22,142 bases of DNA from a virus: the IMG/VR virus record IMGVR_UViG_3300042691_000430, positions 1-22,142 of that record. One strand, 5' to 3'. Position numbers and translations under genes: made by a program. Within the stretch, counting starts at the first letter, position 1. Each line of letters begins with the position of its first letter. The notes under the pieces were generated by a model, which was given only the letters and a program-made list of their open reading frames with translations, was not told where the DNA came from and searched no databases. This document shows, piece after piece, positions 2,184-15,429 of this stretch.

Positions 2184-5100
2184 TTAAAGTTGGTTGTAGA
2201 CCGGCAACAATCGGTCCTTCAACGTCCGGTCTACGCGCCAGCCATTTTGGAAGGCGGTATCGACAGTCTCGGCCGTGGGCCCTAACAACGTAAACGTTGG
2301 GCTATCCCCGTAAAGTGATGATTGAGACGCCGCGCCTAGCAATGCAAATGGGCCACTAAAGTTTGACTTCTCGAAGGCTGTGCCAAGATACTCCGGCCAA
2401 TCCATACGGTCAGTCTTGAAGTACCGCTGGTCAGCTTCAACGAACGGTAGCACCGCTGCGAGGCCAAACTTAGCGTACTCACGAAGTTCCATGCCCATCA
2501 TGGCGAGCGGCATAGTAGCCACAGCGGTAAGCGCCAACAAACCAGCAGCAGAACCAATGCGGCCCCACGGAGTGCCTTGCTGCTCATTGGTAAGACGCGT
2601 CTCCATTTCGGTGAACATGCCTCCGAGGATGACCTTACCGTACGAGTAGAAGTATCCCTTCAGCTGCCAGATCAAGGCATAGCTAGGATCGGACGCCCAA
2701 GGCGGGCGCTCGGCTGCGTTAGGACGCAGGATGGAGGACGCAACAAACCGCTGTAGCGCCTGCGTTACTTTCTTACCCTCTGGCGTGGAAAGCTTACGTC
2801 CGCCGTCAACCCAAGCAAGAACTTCTTCGCGGGTAATGCCAAGCTCGCTCAGATATCTGTCCGAGTTCGGATTATTGAACTCGTTACGGGCGTGCTTGAT
2901 CATAAACTGCACGCCCATTCGGGCGGAGAATTCGCGAGAGAAGTTAGTGAACCAGTTAAGGCCCGTAATGTTAAACCATATATCTGTAGCTTTACGAGCA
3001 AGCGGATCCATGTAGTCAGCGTCTGCCTCAGACAGCCATGCATTAGAGACAGCTTCTTGCGTTGCTACGCCTATGTCTCTAGCGAACTGAGCCGCCTCAT
3101 CCCGGTTTTTTATGGTCGCAATGATTTCTTTAAGCCCAACGGTTATGGCCCCGAACTCCCTCGAAGCGATAACAGGACCAGCAAGGTCAGTCAGCGACGC
3201 TAGCGCCGCAAACGGAAGCAGGGCAACCGCCTGTATAAACTGAGCCCAGCTATTGAGCTTCCTCCACACCGGATTCAACGGGGCGCGGTAGCCCATGTAC
3301 GTGTTGATAATTCCAAGCGCTACCTCACGGTCTTCTGGGTTGAGAGCATCAAGAAGCGGCTTTAACTTATCGTTGCCCTGATCGTCCTTTGTTGCGCGAT
3401 CAAATTCAACGCGCTTAACCGCGCTTCGCAGGTACTGCATGAAAGCAACTTTAGGCTCGACAAGGTAAGGAGCCAAGTCAGCCATGCTGAGGTTCTTCGT
3501 CAGTTCCAGCGTTTCTGTCACGTTGGAAGCCGGGTTGAGTGGGTCAACCTGTATGTCTGCTGCGTTGGTGATCGACTGCTGAAGGGAAACAATTCCTTCC
3601 ACAGCCTTTTTTACTTTAGCCGCATTCGCCGTCGGGTCCCTGCTTAGAATCAAATTTATAAACGGCTGCGGGTTGTCGGCAATCGTTACTAAGTTTAAGA
3701 CGCGGGGGAAAAAGTTCTTCCTAAAGCCAACCTTAGTCTTAGACGGAACAATGTAACCGCTGTAGAAATTCTCAAGGAACTCACGAATCTGGCGAGCTTT
3801 GCCGCTAAGCTGGGCTGTGGGGACGTCAGACGCAGCGTCACTAAAACCACTAATGACTGCCGGGTCATCGAGTGATCCAATCTCTTTCTGGACGCGGTTT
3901 ATATAGGCTCTAAACGTATCTGGGGATTTAACTGCAAAACCAGTTTGGCCCTTCGACGTAGGGTCTTGAGCACGGACATAAAACATGTCCGCAATCCTAT
4001 CCCCGGCGTAAAGCCGCATGATGTTGTCAGCTGTAACAACAAGGCCTAAAAACTTCTTAAGGATGAAGTTACCGCGATTCTGGTATAGAAACGTTTGAAG
4101 CGGCCTTGGCGGAGTAACCCGTCCACCACCGGGGGGTTGCCCGCCACCGGGAGGTTGCCCGCCACCGGGAACTGCCTGACCACCAGCGAGCTCAGCCGCA
4201 AGTTCGTCGATCTCATACACAAACGCTCTCTCGGTAAACCCAAGCCCGTTTTGGTCAACCTCCGTCCGACGCGCTTCAAGCACCGCATCCATAAAGGACT
4301 CAAAGTCTTGGCTGACGCCGTCTTTGAGTCGGTTCCGTACGGACTTGGTAAGCGCGTTGTACATGCGCTTTAACTTACCGACGAATTCGTCGAAGAACTT
4401 GTCTACGAGATTCTTGCGAGCACGGTTCTTGTACCGGGCACTCGCCCACAGCGATACTTGATCAGAGAACCATTCTTCAAAGCCACGATCGAAGCCGTAC
4501 TTTTCGCTAAGCTGCTTAAACGAAGAGGAGTTCTTATACGCGTTGATAAGACGGGTACGCAGCGCTTTATTAGTTAGCGCTTTGTCACGCTCTTCCTTGT
4601 ACAGGCTGTGGCCAATCTCATGCGCCACAGTAAGAGCGTCTTGCAACTGGTTGTCAGTTGCGCGGTATATGATTACTTTTTCACCAGTTGGAGATGTAAT
4701 GTGCTGCCCGAGTCTAGACGGGATAGTTCTAAACTTTTCAATTGAATCTTTTACGGCCTGTAGGACTTTAGCGTCAGTAAACTCTGCTGCTAACTGTTCC
4801 GCTGACAATGCAGTCAAATCAGCAAGCGTGTAGATCTTTGGGGCTATCTTCAGCTTAAGCGTGTCCAGAAGATCGGTAATGACGCTGCGAACCATGCTAT
4901 CAATACTATTCGACACCGGTGTCCGTCCGATGTCCCCGGACGGTTTGGACGGTACAACAGTAGTTGGAGCAGGAGCTTGGCGGAGGTCAATGGCCGCACG
5001 GCCAGTATCGATATTCATTGGCGTGGCCAATTCGTCGCCGCGAATATCTGACTTCGAGACTCTTATTCTGTCATTTTCAACCGCACCCTGAGTGTCGGTT

Positions 5101-7958
5101 TGACCCTGCTGTTGCTGCCACGATCGGACGTCGTAAAAAACCGCAGTAATTGTGTCTACCAGGTCTTCGTCGATACCGAGACTTTTAATTATCTTGCCGC
5201 GTTTCTGGTTAAGCTCCAACCGGTAAAACACGTCAGAAACAGTTTGAAAGTCCAATCCAAGCTGTTCCGAAAGATACTCAATGTCAGGCTCGCCCCGCTC
5301 ATTAGACGCTCCGGGGGCGTCAAGCAACTCAAATACCTGCTCCTGCAAGGCATCTCGTATGGCTGTTCGTGCTGGCGGTACTGACTGTGATTGGCTAATA
5401 AGATCGGCCAAAGACACGGGGCGTCCACGATCCAGCCAAGCAGTAACCCCCGTTACAGAGGCAGGTATCTCCTTAGTGATGGATTGCCCATCGACCTGCA
5501 CGTCGTATCCGTTGAGAGCAAGATCAGCCAGTAACGCGAAAAAGCCATTTCTAGCAGCAACTCTTGGGTTGGATGTGATCTGTCCTTGGCGATCTGTAGT
5601 ACCAAGCATGCTTTCGCCGCGACCGAATATCAGGCCACGGCCAGAATTTACTAAGTCCCATAAGGCTACTTTCGCCGTTTTACCGCTAGGCGAGACTATG
5701 GTCACGCGATTGGCATCACGTCGAAGAGTCGGATTACCTGGAGCTGCACCAGCGGTGCGTTCTTTTCCGCCGGATAAAAGGTTGCCAGATACTCTAGAAG
5801 CGCGTCGGATCGACTCAACGAGATACTCTTGTAGGTTAAGCATTAGAGTCTGAGTAGTTTCTACTCCAGTCTCTTTATCCTTAACTACCTTCTCAAATCG
5901 AAACTTCTCGTCTTGACCAAAATCTTCTTCCACAAGACGGAACTTACCATCTGGAGTGTCTTCAACGATTATGGCCGAATACGGACTGTCCTTTTGACGC
6001 TTAACAGCAGTAATCAACAGCTGCTCGGTCATTGAAGCAAAGCGAGGACTGCTCCAATCAGTTTCACCGAAAACCTTTTCGTACTCGGCTCTGGCGGATT
6101 CCGTATTATCGAAAACCGCTGCTAGGTTTTTCTTCCTATCGTACGTACCAAGTACCTTACGCTCTGGTTCAATTATCTGAGAACCTTGCCCAAAAATGTC
6201 TACGTCAGTCTGGTCTTCTGTCCCGTTCTGATCGTCTTCGACATTCATCTCGCGGATTTCAACGCGCTGCTCGGCCTCAAAACGGCGCTTGCGATCTTCG
6301 AGCGCCTTCTCAACCGTGGTCTGCTCGACGCGGCCGCCCTGTGGCATAAGCTTGCCAGCCGCCTGGAAAGCCGCAGGCAAGTTGTCTTGTGTTGTAGCCT
6401 CCTCGGATACAACGCGACCGTCTCGGTCAAACACCTGAACCACGAGATCGCCGGGGTTAGCGGCATCTTTGACGGCGCTGTACCCGAGGGCTACCTGTAG
6501 CGCCTTGTCGGATGCACCGGCGGCTACGACCTCGTTGACCAGATTCAGATCAGTAGAGACTATCGTGCCGCGTCCAGGAATGAACGAGGCGTAAGCCATC
6601 TCGCCACCGATCATTAAATTAGTAATGCCATTCGGACGGGCTTTAATCTTGGTTGGTGCGCCAGCAACCCACACAGCGTTCTTACCGCTAGTTGGGTCAA
6701 GCATCGCCCGAAGCTGTGCGTCGATATCGCGCTCCGGCTCGGGGGTTGTACCGCCAGAGAAGATGTCACCGAACTGTTCTCGGTTGACCTGGTCATTGAC
6801 CCGTTGCTCACGGGCGGTGTCCAGCATGCGACGGGCGCGATCGAAGATGTTAGCGGCTTTATCTACAACGTTACCGGCTGCGTCGCGAGCACCTTGCGGA
6901 GTACGCGCCATAGCGTCGCCTGTAGCGCCAAGGACACCGCCAGCTGCGCCGGGGGCAGCACCGCCAAAGAAGCCAGCAAAAGCTGATTCGGCCAGCCGTA
7001 ACTTGGCGTCTTCTGCAGTAAACAACGGGTCGAGGTCAGCACGGTTAGCAACCGCGATGCCTTCCTGCGCCAGTTCAGTCGTCGCTTCGATAGCGCCGCC
7101 CTGCAAGGCACCAGTTCCGACGCGCTTGGCGAAGTTAGCAAAGATCCCGCCTTCTACGGCGGCACGCTTTGTAGCCTGCTCACCGATCAGTCTGAGCAAG
7201 GCGTACTCGCTGCCCACGCCGATAGCGGCTTGGGGGGCAGCGACAGTAGCGGCACGAATAGCCGTACCGGTATCAAGGGGCTGGCCAGACTCTAGGGCTT
7301 CCGACAGGTTGCTGCCTGACAGGGGCGCGAACTCGGCAGCGAAACCGCCGCCAATTGCGCCACGCGTAGCCGCTTGCCGAAGCGAGCCGTAGGCCAGCTC
7401 AGCGATCTGCTGCTCGGCGGGGTCAGCGACACCCTGAACAGTACGATCGACCGAGTCCTTAATAATGCGCTTAGCCGCCTGGCGGTTTACCTGATTCAGT
7501 ACGCCGCGACCAACAACGGCGGTCAGTGCGCCAGTACCGGCGCTAGCAATAGACAGAGCGGCGGAGGGTAGGACCTGGCCAAAACCACGTGTTGCTTGGC
7601 TAATAAACCCGCTAAACGTAGGTTGGTCCAAGAACTGCTCAAAGGTCTCAAGCCCCTCAAGCGGAGCAGCAGCAAACTCTTCGCGAAGCCTCGCTTCTCG
7701 AATATTAGTTTCGGCAGCTTTAGTGTCACCGATTAAGGTGTTCCCAAGGGCTTTGAAGTACTCGAGGTCAGCCGCCAGTCCTTGGGCGCCAGATTCAACG
7801 GCCGCGCTAAACTCTTCACCTAGCGTAGCCGCTCGTCCCTTGAACTCGGGTTTAGGAGCGTTCCCTAGGAACTGCTGAAACTGCAGATCCTCTTCAGGGC
7901 TAGTCTCATTCCCAGCGCGAAGGAACTCAGCAAACGGGTCGTACTGCTCAGGGGCCAT
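2184..7958 (-). CDS. Giant internal virion/ejection protein with zinc-metallopeptidase domain (gp16-like position)
   Basis: This intact 1924-aa polypeptide is the largest gene here. Residues about 115-350 hold Ala/Gly-rich hydrophobic stretches. Residues about 370-1100 are soluble-looking and unrecognised. AHEIGHSLY places an HExxH motif at H1113-H1117, and FEEWFSD follows at 1160-1166, giving E1162 in an ExxSD pattern like thermolysin-type gluzincins. A Gly/Pro repeat hinge lies near 1261-1279. The C-terminal part has hydrophobic segments near 1571-1594 and 1799-1823 and ends with SPTFTLLGPTAETVD, resembling phage large polyvalent proteins (LPD38-like, from memory). It follows the gp15-like gene by 5 nt and precedes lysis, the place of T7 gp16, so I infer ejection into the cell envelope at infection. 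T7 gp16's lytic transglycosylase domain was not recognised here. Confidence 0.8.
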   Translation of the reverse strand: MAPEQYDPFAEFLRAGNETSPEEDLQFQQFLGNAPKPEFKGRAATLGEEFSAAVESGAQGLAADLEYFKALGNTLIGDTKAAETNIREARLREEFAAAPLEGLETFEQFLDQPTFSGFISQATRGFGQVLPSAALSIASAGTGALTAVVGRGVLNQVNRQAAKRIIKDSVDRTVQGVADPAEQQIAELAYGSLRQAATRGAIGGGFAAEFAPLSGSNLSEALESGQPLDTGTAIRAATVAAPQAAIGVGSEYALLRLIGEQATKRAAVEGGIFANFAKRVGTGALQGGAIEATTELAQEGIAVANRADLDPLFTAEDAKLRLAESAFAGFFGGAAPGAAGGVLGATGDAMARTPQGARDAAGNVVDKAANIFDRARRMLDTAREQRVNDQVNREQFGDIFSGGTTPEPERDIDAQLRAMLDPTSGKNAVWVAGAPTKIKARPNGITNLMIGGEMAYASFIPGRGTIVSTDLNLVNEVVAAGASDKALQVALGYSAVKDAANPGDLVVQVFDRDGRVVSEEATTQDNLPAAFQAAGKLMPQGGRVEQTTVEKALEDRKRRFEAEQRVEIREMNVEDDQNGTEDQTDVDIFGQGSQIIEPERKVLGTYDRKKNLAAVFDNTESARAEYEKVFGETDWSSPRFASMTEQLLITAVKRQKDSPYSAIIVEDTPDGKFRLVEEDFGQDEKFRFEKVVKDKETGVETTQTLMLNLQEYLVESIRRASRVSGNLLSGGKERTAGAAPGNPTLRRDANRVTIVSPSGKTAKVALWDLVNSGRGLIFGRGESMLGTTDRQGQITSNPRVAARNGFFALLADLALNGYDVQVDGQSITKEIPASVTGVTAWLDRGRPVSLADLISQSQSVPPARTAIRDALQEQVFELLDAPGASNERGEPDIEYLSEQLGLDFQTVSDVFYRLELNQKRGKIIKSLGIDEDLVDTITAVFYDVRSWQQQQGQTDTQGAVENDRIRVSKSDIRGDELATPMNIDTGRAAIDLRQAPAPTTVVPSKPSGDIGRTPVSNSIDSMVRSVITDLLDTLKLKIAPKIYTLADLTALSAEQLAAEFTDAKVLQAVKDSIEKFRTIPSRLGQHITSPTGEKVIIYRATDNQLQDALTVAHEIGHSLYKEERDKALTNKALRTRLINAYKNSSSFKQLSEKYGFDRGFEEWFSDQVSLWASARYKNRARKNLVDKFFDEFVGKLKRMYNALTKSVRNRLKDGVSQDFESFMDAVLEARRTEVDQNGLGFTERAFVYEIDELAAELAGGQAVPGGGQPPGGGQPPGGGRVTPPRPLQTFLYQNRGNFILKKFLGLVVTADNIMRLYAGDRIADMFYVRAQDPTSKGQTGFAVKSPDTFRAYINRVQKEIGSLDDPAVISGFSDAASDVPTAQLSGKARQIREFLENFYSGYIVPSKTKVGFRKNFFPRVLNLVTIADNPQPFINLILSRDPTANAAKVKKAVEGIVSLQQSITNAADIQVDPLNPASNVTETLELTKNLSMADLAPYLVEPKVAFMQYLRSAVKRVEFDRATKDDQGNDKLKPLLDALNPEDREVALGIINTYMGYRAPLNPVWRKLNSWAQFIQAVALLPFAALASLTDLAGPVIASREFGAITVGLKEIIATIKNRDEAAQFARDIGVATQEAVSNAWLSEADADYMDPLARKATDIWFNITGLNWFTNFSREFSARMGVQFMIKHARNEFNNPNSDRYLSELGITREEVLAWVDGGRKLSTPEGKKVTQALQRFVASSILRPNAAERPPWASDPSYALIWQLKGYFYSYGKVILGGMFTEMETRLTNEQQGTPWGRIGSAAGLLALTAVATMPLAMMGMELREYAKFGLAAVLPFVEADQRYFKTDRMDWPEYLGTAFEKSNFSGPFALLGAASQSSLYGDSPTFTLLGPTAETVDTAFQNGWRVDRTLKDRLLPVYNQL
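4123..4176 (-). repeat. Three tandem 18-bp units encoding a Gly/Pro hinge
   Basis: Three consecutive 18-bp copies of approximately ccgccaccgggaggttgc (4123-4140, 4141-4158, 4159-4176) lie in frame in the giant ejection protein. They encode PGGGQP-type units around residues 1261-1279. The first two are nearly identical and the third has diverged in its last bases. The hinge separates the metallopeptidase part from the C-terminal hydrophobic domains. Copy number could vary between relatives through slippage. Confidence 0.85.
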
Positions 7959-13870: not shown

Positions 13871-13887
13871 CCTCGTTAAAAACGAGG
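13871..13887 (-). promoter_or_regulatory. Hairpin covering the ribosome binding site of the 127-aa gene
   Basis: On the transcript, CCTCGTT and AACGAGG form a perfect 7-bp stem around a TTT loop (plus positions 13871-13877 and 13881-13887). The 3' arm contains most of the GAGGAG ribosome binding site of the 127-aa gene. Two bases (13886-13887) are shared with the upstream terminator stem, so the two hairpins compete at their junction. This would lower translation of readthrough transcripts. The effect is predicted from pairing only. Confidence 0.55.
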
Positions 13888-13910
13888 GCCCCCTCGTGTT
13901 GAGGGGGCCC
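13878..13910 (-). terminator. Rho-independent terminator after the major capsid gene
   Basis: The minus-strand transcript forms a perfect 10-bp G/C-rich stem, GGGCCCCCTC with GAGGGGGCCC (plus 13901-13910 and 13886-13895), around the 5-nt loop AACAC. It is followed by TCG and five T residues. It starts 10 nt after the capsid stop codon. Partial termination here would make capsid mRNA more abundant than the downstream adaptor and ejection genes, the usual arrangement in phages. Confidence 0.85.
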
Positions 13911-13920
13911 CCTAGGCGGC

Positions 13921-15063
13921 TTACTGAGCCGTATCGAGAGCGATCACGCCAAAGTCCTGGACGCTGGCAGTGACATCGCTGTTGTACTTCGGCTTACGGA
14001 GACCGAAGATCTTGCCGATCGAGATACCAGACTGGTTCTGGTAGTCGAAGGTGTCTTCGACGATATCCGGCAGACCGATGTCCGCCATGGCAAGAGCCTG
14101 GGCGCCGCAGAACAGAGCACGCGCACCAACGATGTTGGCGTTCGCACCCCACTTGTAGCCAGCCGCACCGGCGTTAGCCGAGGTACCAGTCGTCGCACCA
14201 GAGGTGTTAAACACATGGCGGAACTCGTGGACCATCACGCCGTCAACCATCAGCGAGCTCGAACCCGCGAACAGCTGGTTGCTCGGACCGCGGATGCCAG
14301 CGTTACGCACGTTGGCAAGGAAGTCCGAATCAAGCTTGAGCGAGGCCATCTGCTGCGGAGTAACGAAGAGATGGAACATCTCGTCGTTGCCAGCGCTACG
14401 CACGCCACGGATATACTGATCCTTGGCGTAAGCCTTGAGGTCGACGATGTGCCGATACTTCAGCTTATCCGTCGCCGTCACAGCCGTCGTGTCGCCAGCG
14501 ACAAGGTTGTCGCCCGAAACTCGGCGGTGGCGCGAAGCCGTCGGGGCCGACACGTCAGAGGCGAACTCGAGGTTTGACAGGTTCTGGCCCGAGGCCAAAA
14601 CGCTGCGAAGCGCACCGTTCGTCTTGTGCGTGTACGCCACACCGGCAAGCGTAAGGAACGAAAGCTGGTCAATACGATCAGCCATCGCATACGCAAGCGC
14701 GTCGCGGCTCGTCTCACGGAAGTTCACCACGCTCTTCTGGTCCGCAAGGCGACCGGCAATGCGGTTCGCAAAACGGAGCTGGTCGAGCTCGATGGTGATG
14801 TCGTAAGCGCGGAGCGCCTCTTCATTACCCTCGAGGGTGCTGTCACCCGTCACACCGTCACCGGTCATGTCGGCGAGCAGCGTGATAACAGCCTTCGTGC
14901 CCTTGTCCGACTTGGTCAGCTCAGTGACACGCGTGATCATCGCGTTGGAACCCGAACCAGCGAACTGGTTCACAAACGACATATTGCGAGCGACGCGCCA
15001 GAAATCACGGCTCCACGCCGTGAGTTGTTCACTAGTCAGCGCCGCAAAATTAGTAAGAGCCAT
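13921..15063 (-). CDS. Major capsid protein, N4 gp56/DUF4043-type
   Basis: This 380-aa protein has the family pattern: LTSEQLTAWSRDFWRVARNM near the start, TKAVITLLADMTGDGVTGDS at about 53-72, then EGNEEALRAYDITIELDQLRFANR and a REXX-DALAYAMADRIDQL helix. The 'GxGVTGDxTLEGNEEAL' element is characteristic of the N4 gp56-type (DUF4043) major capsid fold, which I take as HK97-like. It assembles into the head around the scaffold. The start has a perfect AGGAG site eight bases upstream. It is preceded by a 264-bp structured leader and followed by a strong terminator, which suggests separate, high expression. No prohead protease is seen beside it, and I see no clear propeptide cleavage site. Confidence 0.9.
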   Translation of the reverse strand: MALTNFAALTSEQLTAWSRDFWRVARNMSFVNQFAGSGSNAMITRVTELTKSDKGTKAVITLLADMTGDGVTGDSTLEGNEEALRAYDITIELDQLRFANRIAGRLADQKSVVNFRETSRDALAYAMADRIDQLSFLTLAGVAYTHKTNGALRSVLASGQNLSNLEFASDVSAPTASRHRRVSGDNLVAGDTTAVTATDKLKYRHIVDLKAYAKDQYIRGVRSAGNDEMFHLFVTPQQMASLKLDSDFLANVRNAGIRGPSNQLFAGSSSLMVDGVMVHEFRHVFNTSGATTGTSANAGAAGYKWGANANIVGARALFCGAQALAMADIGLPDIVEDTFDYQNQSGISIGKIFGLRKPKYNSDVTASVQDFGVIALDTAQ

Positions 15064-15099
15064 TTGGCTTCTCCTGTATAAATTGCGTTACAAAATCCA

Positions 15100-15117
15100 G
15101 TAATGCACCTGCATTAC
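15100..15117. repeat. 18-bp near-perfect palindrome upstream of the capsid gene
   Basis: GTAATGCA (15100-15107) and TGCATTAC (15110-15117) are exact inverted repeats separated by two bases, 37-54 bases before the capsid start. As DNA it resembles a dimeric repressor operator. As RNA it gives a 7-bp stem with a four-base AGGT loop. Which form matters cannot be told from sequence. Confidence 0.6.
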
Positions 15118-15311
15118 CAGGCTATTGCCGACTTCTTTGGTGCGGCTAACCCGTTCTCCCGTATCGTGGGGTAACGACTTAGCGCGTGTTCACGAGACGC
15201 GATCTCGGCGGGTTTAACGCCTACGCAGGCGGGGTTCAAACACGTTTTTTACGTGTGCGACACGGCTGGATATCGTTCCAACGGACGAGTTCAGTTGTAG
15301 ATTAACAACAG

Positions 15312-15317
15312 ATTATA
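15312..15317 (-). promoter_or_regulatory. Possible -10 element (TATAAT) for the capsid leader
   Basis: The minus strand carries an exact TATAAT, 10 nt past the stop of the 33-aa gene and about 250 nt before the capsid start. No TTGACA-like hexamer lies 16-18 bases upstream (AAGCAA is the best there), and there is no extended TG. An A-rich stretch precedes it. It may be a weak or activator-dependent promoter, or coincidence in an A/T-rich patch. Confidence 0.35.
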
Positions 15318-15327
15318 AAGTTCGCAA

Positions 15328-15429
15328 CTAGTATTTGCTTTTTTTACGCGGCCCACTAGCAGTTTTCTTCAGGCATTTTCCCGCCTTAGCGCAGCGAGAG
15401 GGCGTTGGGCAGTTAGGACAGGGTTTCAT
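15328..15429 (-). CDS. 33-aa cysteine-rich small protein
   Basis: This short reading frame runs from ATG 15427-15429 to TAG 15328-15330. It begins MKPCPNCPTPSRCAKAGKC, with four cysteines spaced C-x2-C-x5-C-x5-C (C4, C7, C13, C19), followed by a lysine-rich tail ending KKSKY. The pattern fits a tiny zinc-binding protein, and similar mini-proteins occur beside head genes in other phages (memory only). The start lies two bases after the upstream TGA and has GAGGTTGAGT as ribosome binding site, which argues strongly that it is translated. It is basic, so nucleic-acid or scaffold contact is possible. Function unknown. Confidence 0.7.
   Translation of the reverse strand: MKPCPNCPTPSRCAKAGKCLKKTASGPRKKSKY

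Follow-up and report, generated by a model that had tools for sequence, protein, structure and literature searches.

The non-coding gap that precedes the major capsid protein gene of this virus contains a conserved RNA, which is best read from the aligned sequences as five tandem H-type pseudoknots followed by a 3′ hairpin. A promoter motif lies immediately before the element and the capsid gene is often followed by a terminator, so this RNA most probably forms the 5′ end (5′ UTR) of a dedicated capsid mRNA. The window that we analysed is the complete virus record of 22,142 bp, and the gap (15064–15327, 264 bp) is bounded exactly by the capsid ATG, which starts at 15063 (minus strand), and by the stop codon of a 33-aa ORF. 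The features are listed in Table 1.

Table 1. Features of the capsid leader and its surroundings in the window.
Feature	Position	Strand	Details
33-aa ORF	15328–15429	minus	stop codon ends at 15328
−35 box TTGCGA of the putative capsid promoter	15322–15327	minus	motif match
−10 box TAATCT	15299–15304	minus	17-nt spacing from the −35 box
Pseudoknot-array RNA, whole covariance-model match	15123–15292	minus	R1 152.9 bits, E 1.4e-45 (rough); window sequence in the training set
Pseudoknot A	15265–15288	minus	UCGU 15285–15288 with P1 loop ACGA 15273–15276; stem 15278–15282/15265–15269
Pseudoknot B	15243–15264	minus	stem 15261–15264/15252–15255; possible pairing of loop 15257–15259 with 15243–15245 (2–3 bp)
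Pseudoknot C	15208–15231	minus	stem 15228–15231/15218–15221; P3 loop GCG 15224–15226 with CGC 15208–15210
Pseudoknot D	15183–15207	minus	stem 15203–15207/15193–15197; P4 loop CGC 15199–15201 with GCG 15183–15185
Pseudoknot E	15157–15176	minus	CGU 15174–15176 with loop ACG 15165–15167; stem 15168–15171/15157–15160
Closing hairpin P6	15125–15148	minus	UAGCCG/CGGCUA type; 5/6 pairs in the window
Variable hairpin P7	15097–15120	minus	spacer hairpin, terminator-like in the window
Shine-Dalgarno AGGAG of the capsid gene	15071–15075	minus	sequence
Major capsid protein gene	13921–15063	minus	phrog_334 major head protein, E 1.2e-82
Putative intrinsic terminator directly 3′ of the capsid gene	13884–13912	minus	12-bp stem, 10 GC, tail GTTTTT; motif match

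The 33-aa ORF, situated just 5′ of the promoter, encodes a Cys-rich peptide (MKPCPNCPTPSRCAKAGKCLKK...) for which no Pfam match was obtained. The same was true of a 1,924-aa virion protein encoded at 2184–7958 of the window (minus strand), which is phrog_30152-like and carries a HEIGH metalloprotease-like motif.

The initial annotation had noticed short stem-loops in the gap, had proposed that the gap is under selection, and had suggested folding against shuffled controls, covariation and conservation in relatives as ways to check it. The stem-loops are real (P1–P6 and P7), but they are better read as tandem pseudoknots, so the observation was right and understated. Minimum-energy folding compared with shuffled sequences gave z = −1.67 for the minus strand (capsid sense), which is weak by itself, and −2.51 for the plus strand. 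The folding energy was unable to decide because it was mild on the capsid-sense strand and better on the opposite one, and it was dropped as a criterion.

Relatives were collected from IMG/VR by a search with the capsid, which gave 80 loci of 82–100% identity, and by a second search with a divergent capsid (L155), which gave 80 more loci down to 55% identity. When the leader itself was used in blastn, nearly all of the 80 first-search loci matched, the more distant ones in the central part only. The first alignment was made with MAFFT from 39 sequences using a hand-derived structure; 96.6% of its cells were paired, and 159 cells carried double changes, compared with 39.3 in shuffled and at most 23 in slid controls. 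A covariance model (R1) was then built, followed by a model-fitted alignment of 58 sequences (A2). R1 found the element about 200 nt 5′ of the capsid gene in loci whose capsids are down to about 65% identical to that of L155, and its matches outside the training set, including the far clade, had E-values of 1.6e-18 or better, although R1 and R2 E-values are rough owing to a shortened calibration. Across the 58 distinct relatives in A2, 95.8% of the structure was paired and 334 cells carried double changes, compared with 77 in shuffled and at most 49 in slid controls; since A2 was fitted to R1, these counts favour the nested helices and not the loop pairings, which R1 does not contain and towards which the counts are therefore unbiased.

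A phylogeny-aware covariation test, written for this analysis and not R-scape itself, was performed on A2. Seven column pairs reached significance (E ≤ 0.05, all column pairs considered), and every one of them belongs to the proposed stems; the strongest signals outside the nested model included loop pairings. With the test limited to the proposed pairs, the loop pairings of pseudoknots A, C and D gave E-values of 0.0014–0.03 (D after local realignment). In the MAFFT alignment, which is independent of R1, the loop pairs alone showed 20 double-change cells, compared with 3.8 in shuffled and 2–14 in slid controls.

Taken individually, A, C and D appear as pseudoknots supported by covariation, and E is supported by invariance together with one compensatory change. 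All five stem pairs of A covary, and its UCGU/ACGA pairing is replaced by UCGC/GCGA in 13/58 sequences. Similarly, the three loop pairs of C all covary (GC/AU, CG/UA, AU/CG/UA/GC), and in D the pairing CGC/GCG changes to CGU/ACG in 17/58, with the 3′ strand locally realigned. The stem of E covaries, and its loop pairing, present in 58/58, is nearly invariant. The stem of B covaries as well; its loop pairing CG/CG is nearly invariant, and the third pair is found in 33/58 and is mismatched in the window; the loop pairing of B is weak and is proposed by analogy. In P6 the cells were 96.6% paired, and C-G is exchanged for U-A in 13/58. The loop pairings are short (2–4 bp), and a minimum-energy fold computed without pseudoknots favours other pairings. 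The hairpin loops of the array are of the CGN, GCA and ACGAUA types, and the sequences ACGAUA and UUAAA are conserved beyond base pairs; the conserved A-rich UUAAA linkers are compatible with canonical H-type pseudoknot geometry.

Several other pairings were tried and rejected. Helix HA (5′ NNCG with CGNN after P2), which was initially part of R1, paired weakly and showed no covariation. A CGU/ACGG helix around P5 was interrupted by G-G in three sequences, and was also broken in the single sequence where pseudoknot E had changed in step. Pairing of the P6-loop CUCC with the Shine-Dalgarno GGAG was not conserved: the loop reads CACC in the window clade and UACC in L059, whereas GGAG is unchanged.

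The nested helices contained 63 G-U pairs and only 2 A-C pairs. This asymmetry, which a structure on the opposite strand would show in reverse, identifies the capsid-sense RNA as the functional molecule and contradicts a DNA-level element or a plus-strand RNA. In far relatives the array retained an identity of 0.60–0.63 to the window, compared with 0.25–0.34 at the four-fold sites of their capsid genes, and their spacer and upstream DNA mostly aligned at or close to the level of shuffled sequence (0.47). Some arrays contain short ATG-started frames; a coding-region reading was rejected, as the indels are not in threes and the gap has no long minus-strand ORF. The proposed selection on the gap is thus upheld by its retention in relatives and by covariation far above the shuffled and slid controls.

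For an unbiased scan, a DNA pattern was derived from the element itself without use of the capsid. It was found in at least 120 IMG/VR viral contigs and in two contigs filed under bacterial bins (L200 and L201, Verrucomicrobiales and Gammaproteobacteria metagenome bins), which resemble phage sequences assigned to bacterial bins. Among the distinct sequences that extend far enough downstream, all had a capsid gene starting about 87–107 nt after the pattern start. In each of 16 contigs of 33–61 kb the array was single-copy and always preceded the capsid gene, and neither these contigs nor the pattern scan yielded the element away from that gene, which bears out the association with capsid expression proposed earlier. 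No DNA match to the element was obtained in cultured phages; the phages that bear it form a large, widespread aquatic clade without a cultured member.

The array was not detected in more distant capsid relatives (KPP25-like, phiA008, AP1, L274, L278 and L281), L275 and L280 gave only a borderline match (E 0.02–0.04), and a scan using the phiA008 capsid found nothing. Since capsid relatives at 45–53% identity lack the array, it is not general to this capsid family. Upstream of position 3001 in L246 a natural deletion variant was seen, in which, as read from the sequence, units A, C and E are seemingly kept and B and D lost (covariance model R2, E 6e-4, a rough value); this apparent modular loss suggests that the units act additively. 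L275 has, upstream of position 3001, a different structured capsid leader with GCGUUAA three times in hairpin loops. In L085 (MW202615.1) a group I intron (RF00028, 67.2 bits) occupies 2649–2971, directly 5′ of the major capsid part, and the capsid match after it begins at residue 74; the capsid gene of this podovirus is probably split by the intron.

We then considered the transcript to which the array would belong. The motif TTGC-N19-TAATNT occurs once in the 22-kb window, at 15299–15327, and the promoter is sigma70-like (TTGC-N19-TAATAT) by motif match, with a predicted transcription start at about 15291–15293. A motif of the form TTGm..-16/18-TA...T was found in 41/58 relatives, compared with 1.7% of shuffled upstream sequences, and TTGC-N18/20-TAAT[AC]T had 28 occurrences at the array, compared with 5 in other places within 410 kb. 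In relatives the −10 box ends 8–13 nt before the array structure (UCGU); in the far clade the same position is mostly occupied by TGG-TATAAA or TGG-TATAAC. The enclosing long-range helix suspected in the initial annotation did not hold up: its 5′ strand UUGCG (15323–15327) is probably untranscribed because it is part of the −35 box, and the partner CGCAA, close to the ribosome-binding site, is absent from many relatives.

At the other end of the gene, the terminator in the window reads GGGGGCCCCC-UCAACACGA-GGGGGCCCUC-GUUUUU, and an intrinsic terminator 3′ of the capsid stop was found by strict criteria in 31/52 relatives, compared with 0.00 in shuffles. The capsid gene thus has a promoter motif directly before it and a terminator motif directly after it, as in a T7-like dedicated unit. 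A single-subunit RNA polymerase (PF00940) was not found in nine of the 16 contigs, which are 54–61 kb long and of unstated completeness, in a search that recovered the T7 positive control, and this fits a host-polymerase promoter. In L274, L278, L281 and L082, which lack the array, a terminator-like hairpin separates the capsid leader from the gene upstream of it; an insulated capsid unit may thus predate the array.

The reading that we favour, with a rough probability of 0.45, is that the leader gives 5′-end protection and high output to a dedicated capsid mRNA. Transcription from the sigma70-like promoter would begin within a few bases of the array, and the RNA would fold co-transcriptionally into five small consecutive pseudoknots with the closing hairpin at the end, followed by a short spacer that contains the ribosome-binding site. 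The intrinsic terminator would, in many relatives, end the transcript just past the capsid stop. The compact pseudoknotted 5′ end may bar RNases that enter or scan from that end, candidates being RNase E with RppH, and RNase J, while the terminator hairpin would shield the 3′ end; the expected outcome is a long-lived, highly translated message for a protein required in hundreds of copies. Bacterial mRNAs are known to be stabilised by 5′ stem-loops and 3′ terminator hairpins (PMC7509114). The sequence evidence covers the structure, strand, linkage, promoter motif and terminator motif. The conservation of the loop sequences exceeds the strict need of a passive barrier, which could be explained by tertiary contacts.

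The same loop conservation speaks for the main rival to 5′-end protection, an autogenous translational operator, in which cooperative binding of the capsid protein, or of a different phage protein, to the repeated pseudoknots stops capsid synthesis once free subunits accumulate. The strict linkage to the capsid gene and the repeated modules, which favour cooperative binding, agree with such an operator, and T4 gene 32, whose product gp32 acts in this way on its own leader pseudoknot, provides a precedent (PMC3014915). However, we found no conserved pairing that would mask the ribosome-binding site, the array ends a median of 50 nt before the ATG, and the absence of the array from capsid relatives at 45–53% identity also argues against it; we consider an operator appreciably less probable than 5′-end protection. 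Most relatives have a GGAG-type Shine-Dalgarno sequence; a calculation of its accessibility was uninformative without pseudoknot energies.

The spacer bears on whether the leader could instead release a separate small RNA, as the initial annotation had also considered; such an RNA would act in trans or structurally (as a sponge or decoy, or in packaging or assembly) and have no more than the promoter in common with the capsid gene. A spacer hairpin of 6 bp or more is present in 37/53 relatives (16.9 expected), and the terminator-like P7 of the window, together with a compact independent fold from the promoter onward, would suit such an RNA. Nevertheless, a strict terminator between the array and the ATG was found in only 5/57 loci, P7 is not clear in parts of the far clade, and the element was never found apart from the capsid gene; a separate small RNA is therefore unlikely. 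Processive antitermination of the HK022 put type, in which the nascent structure modifies RNA polymerase and leads to terminator readthrough, is still less probable: the array does occupy the very start of the predicted transcript, with a strong terminator 3′ of the capsid gene and more structural genes beyond, but the terminators right after the capsid gene recur in relatives, which suggests that they are used, and five pseudoknots are unlike the two stem-loops of put. Least probable of all is a riboswitch or attenuator in which UUAGCCG pairs alternately with GCUA on its 5′ side and with CGGCUA (P6) on its 3′ side, for although both pairings can form in the main clade, with the outer pair of GCUA/UUAG in 44/44, the far clade has lost the 5′ pairing, which also lacks significant covariation, and there is no conserved expression platform.

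To our knowledge, hardly any pseudoknotted leaders are known to control structural genes of phages, and among phage leaders that of T4 gene 32 is the textbook case. The present leader is more elaborate than that of gene 32, is under strong selection in many phages and predicts a dedicated capsid mRNA. We propose that modular tandem-pseudoknot leaders might be a new class of phage expression element, with units that can be lost, in which a nuclease-proof or capsid-sensing 5′ end would set coat-protein output across the clade. If the leader stabilises RNA, it would be a ready-made expression leader driven by host polymerase; if the capsid protein binds it, it would form a feedback circuit on head assembly.

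The earlier suggestion of a new phage RNA element agrees with database comparisons. In Rfam 15 nothing reached the gathering score for the window and 20 relatives, the best sub-threshold match being freshwater-2 (18 bits, cut-off 49.9), and literature searches, covering open-licence papers only, gave no relevant prior description. The closest architecture is the STAXI motif, known from comparative genomics, in which a small pseudoknot recurs in tandem, as a rule with three copies (Weinberg 2010, PMC2864571); it is located close to genes whose products manipulate DNA, and many of its copies contain UUCG tetraloops. Our element likewise consists of tandem pseudoknots, with five units where at least two make a repeat, but these are non-identical, have other hairpin loops and invariably have the capsid gene as neighbour; the STAXI covariance model did not match the window at any threshold used, even with E up to 10.

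The upstream pseudoknot domain of tobamoviruses comprises three pseudoknots. One account (PMC4683447) describes this domain of the 3′ UTR as consecutive pseudoknots, which is a likeness to the array, although it concerns the 3′ end of a plant RNA virus and homology is not implied. The gene 32 leader of T4, T2 and RB69 likewise has a phage 5′ pseudoknot that precedes the ribosome-binding site of a gene for an abundant protein; as of 2010 it was perhaps the only case in which a virus uses a pseudoknot to autoregulate translation (PMC3014915). It has one pseudoknot and a known protein ligand, whereas the present leader has an array of five and no known ligand. The T7 unit phi10 - gene 10 - Tphi resembles the arrangement described here in that the capsid gene has its own promoter, leader and terminator. 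T7 differs in its own single-subunit RNA polymerase, of which the nine related contigs gave no trace, and its leader is short. Finally, 5′ stabiliser leaders such as that of ompA have a 5′-end structure able to lengthen mRNA life, as the capsid leader may; they are single stem-loops, whereas the capsid leader carries conserved tandem pseudoknots.
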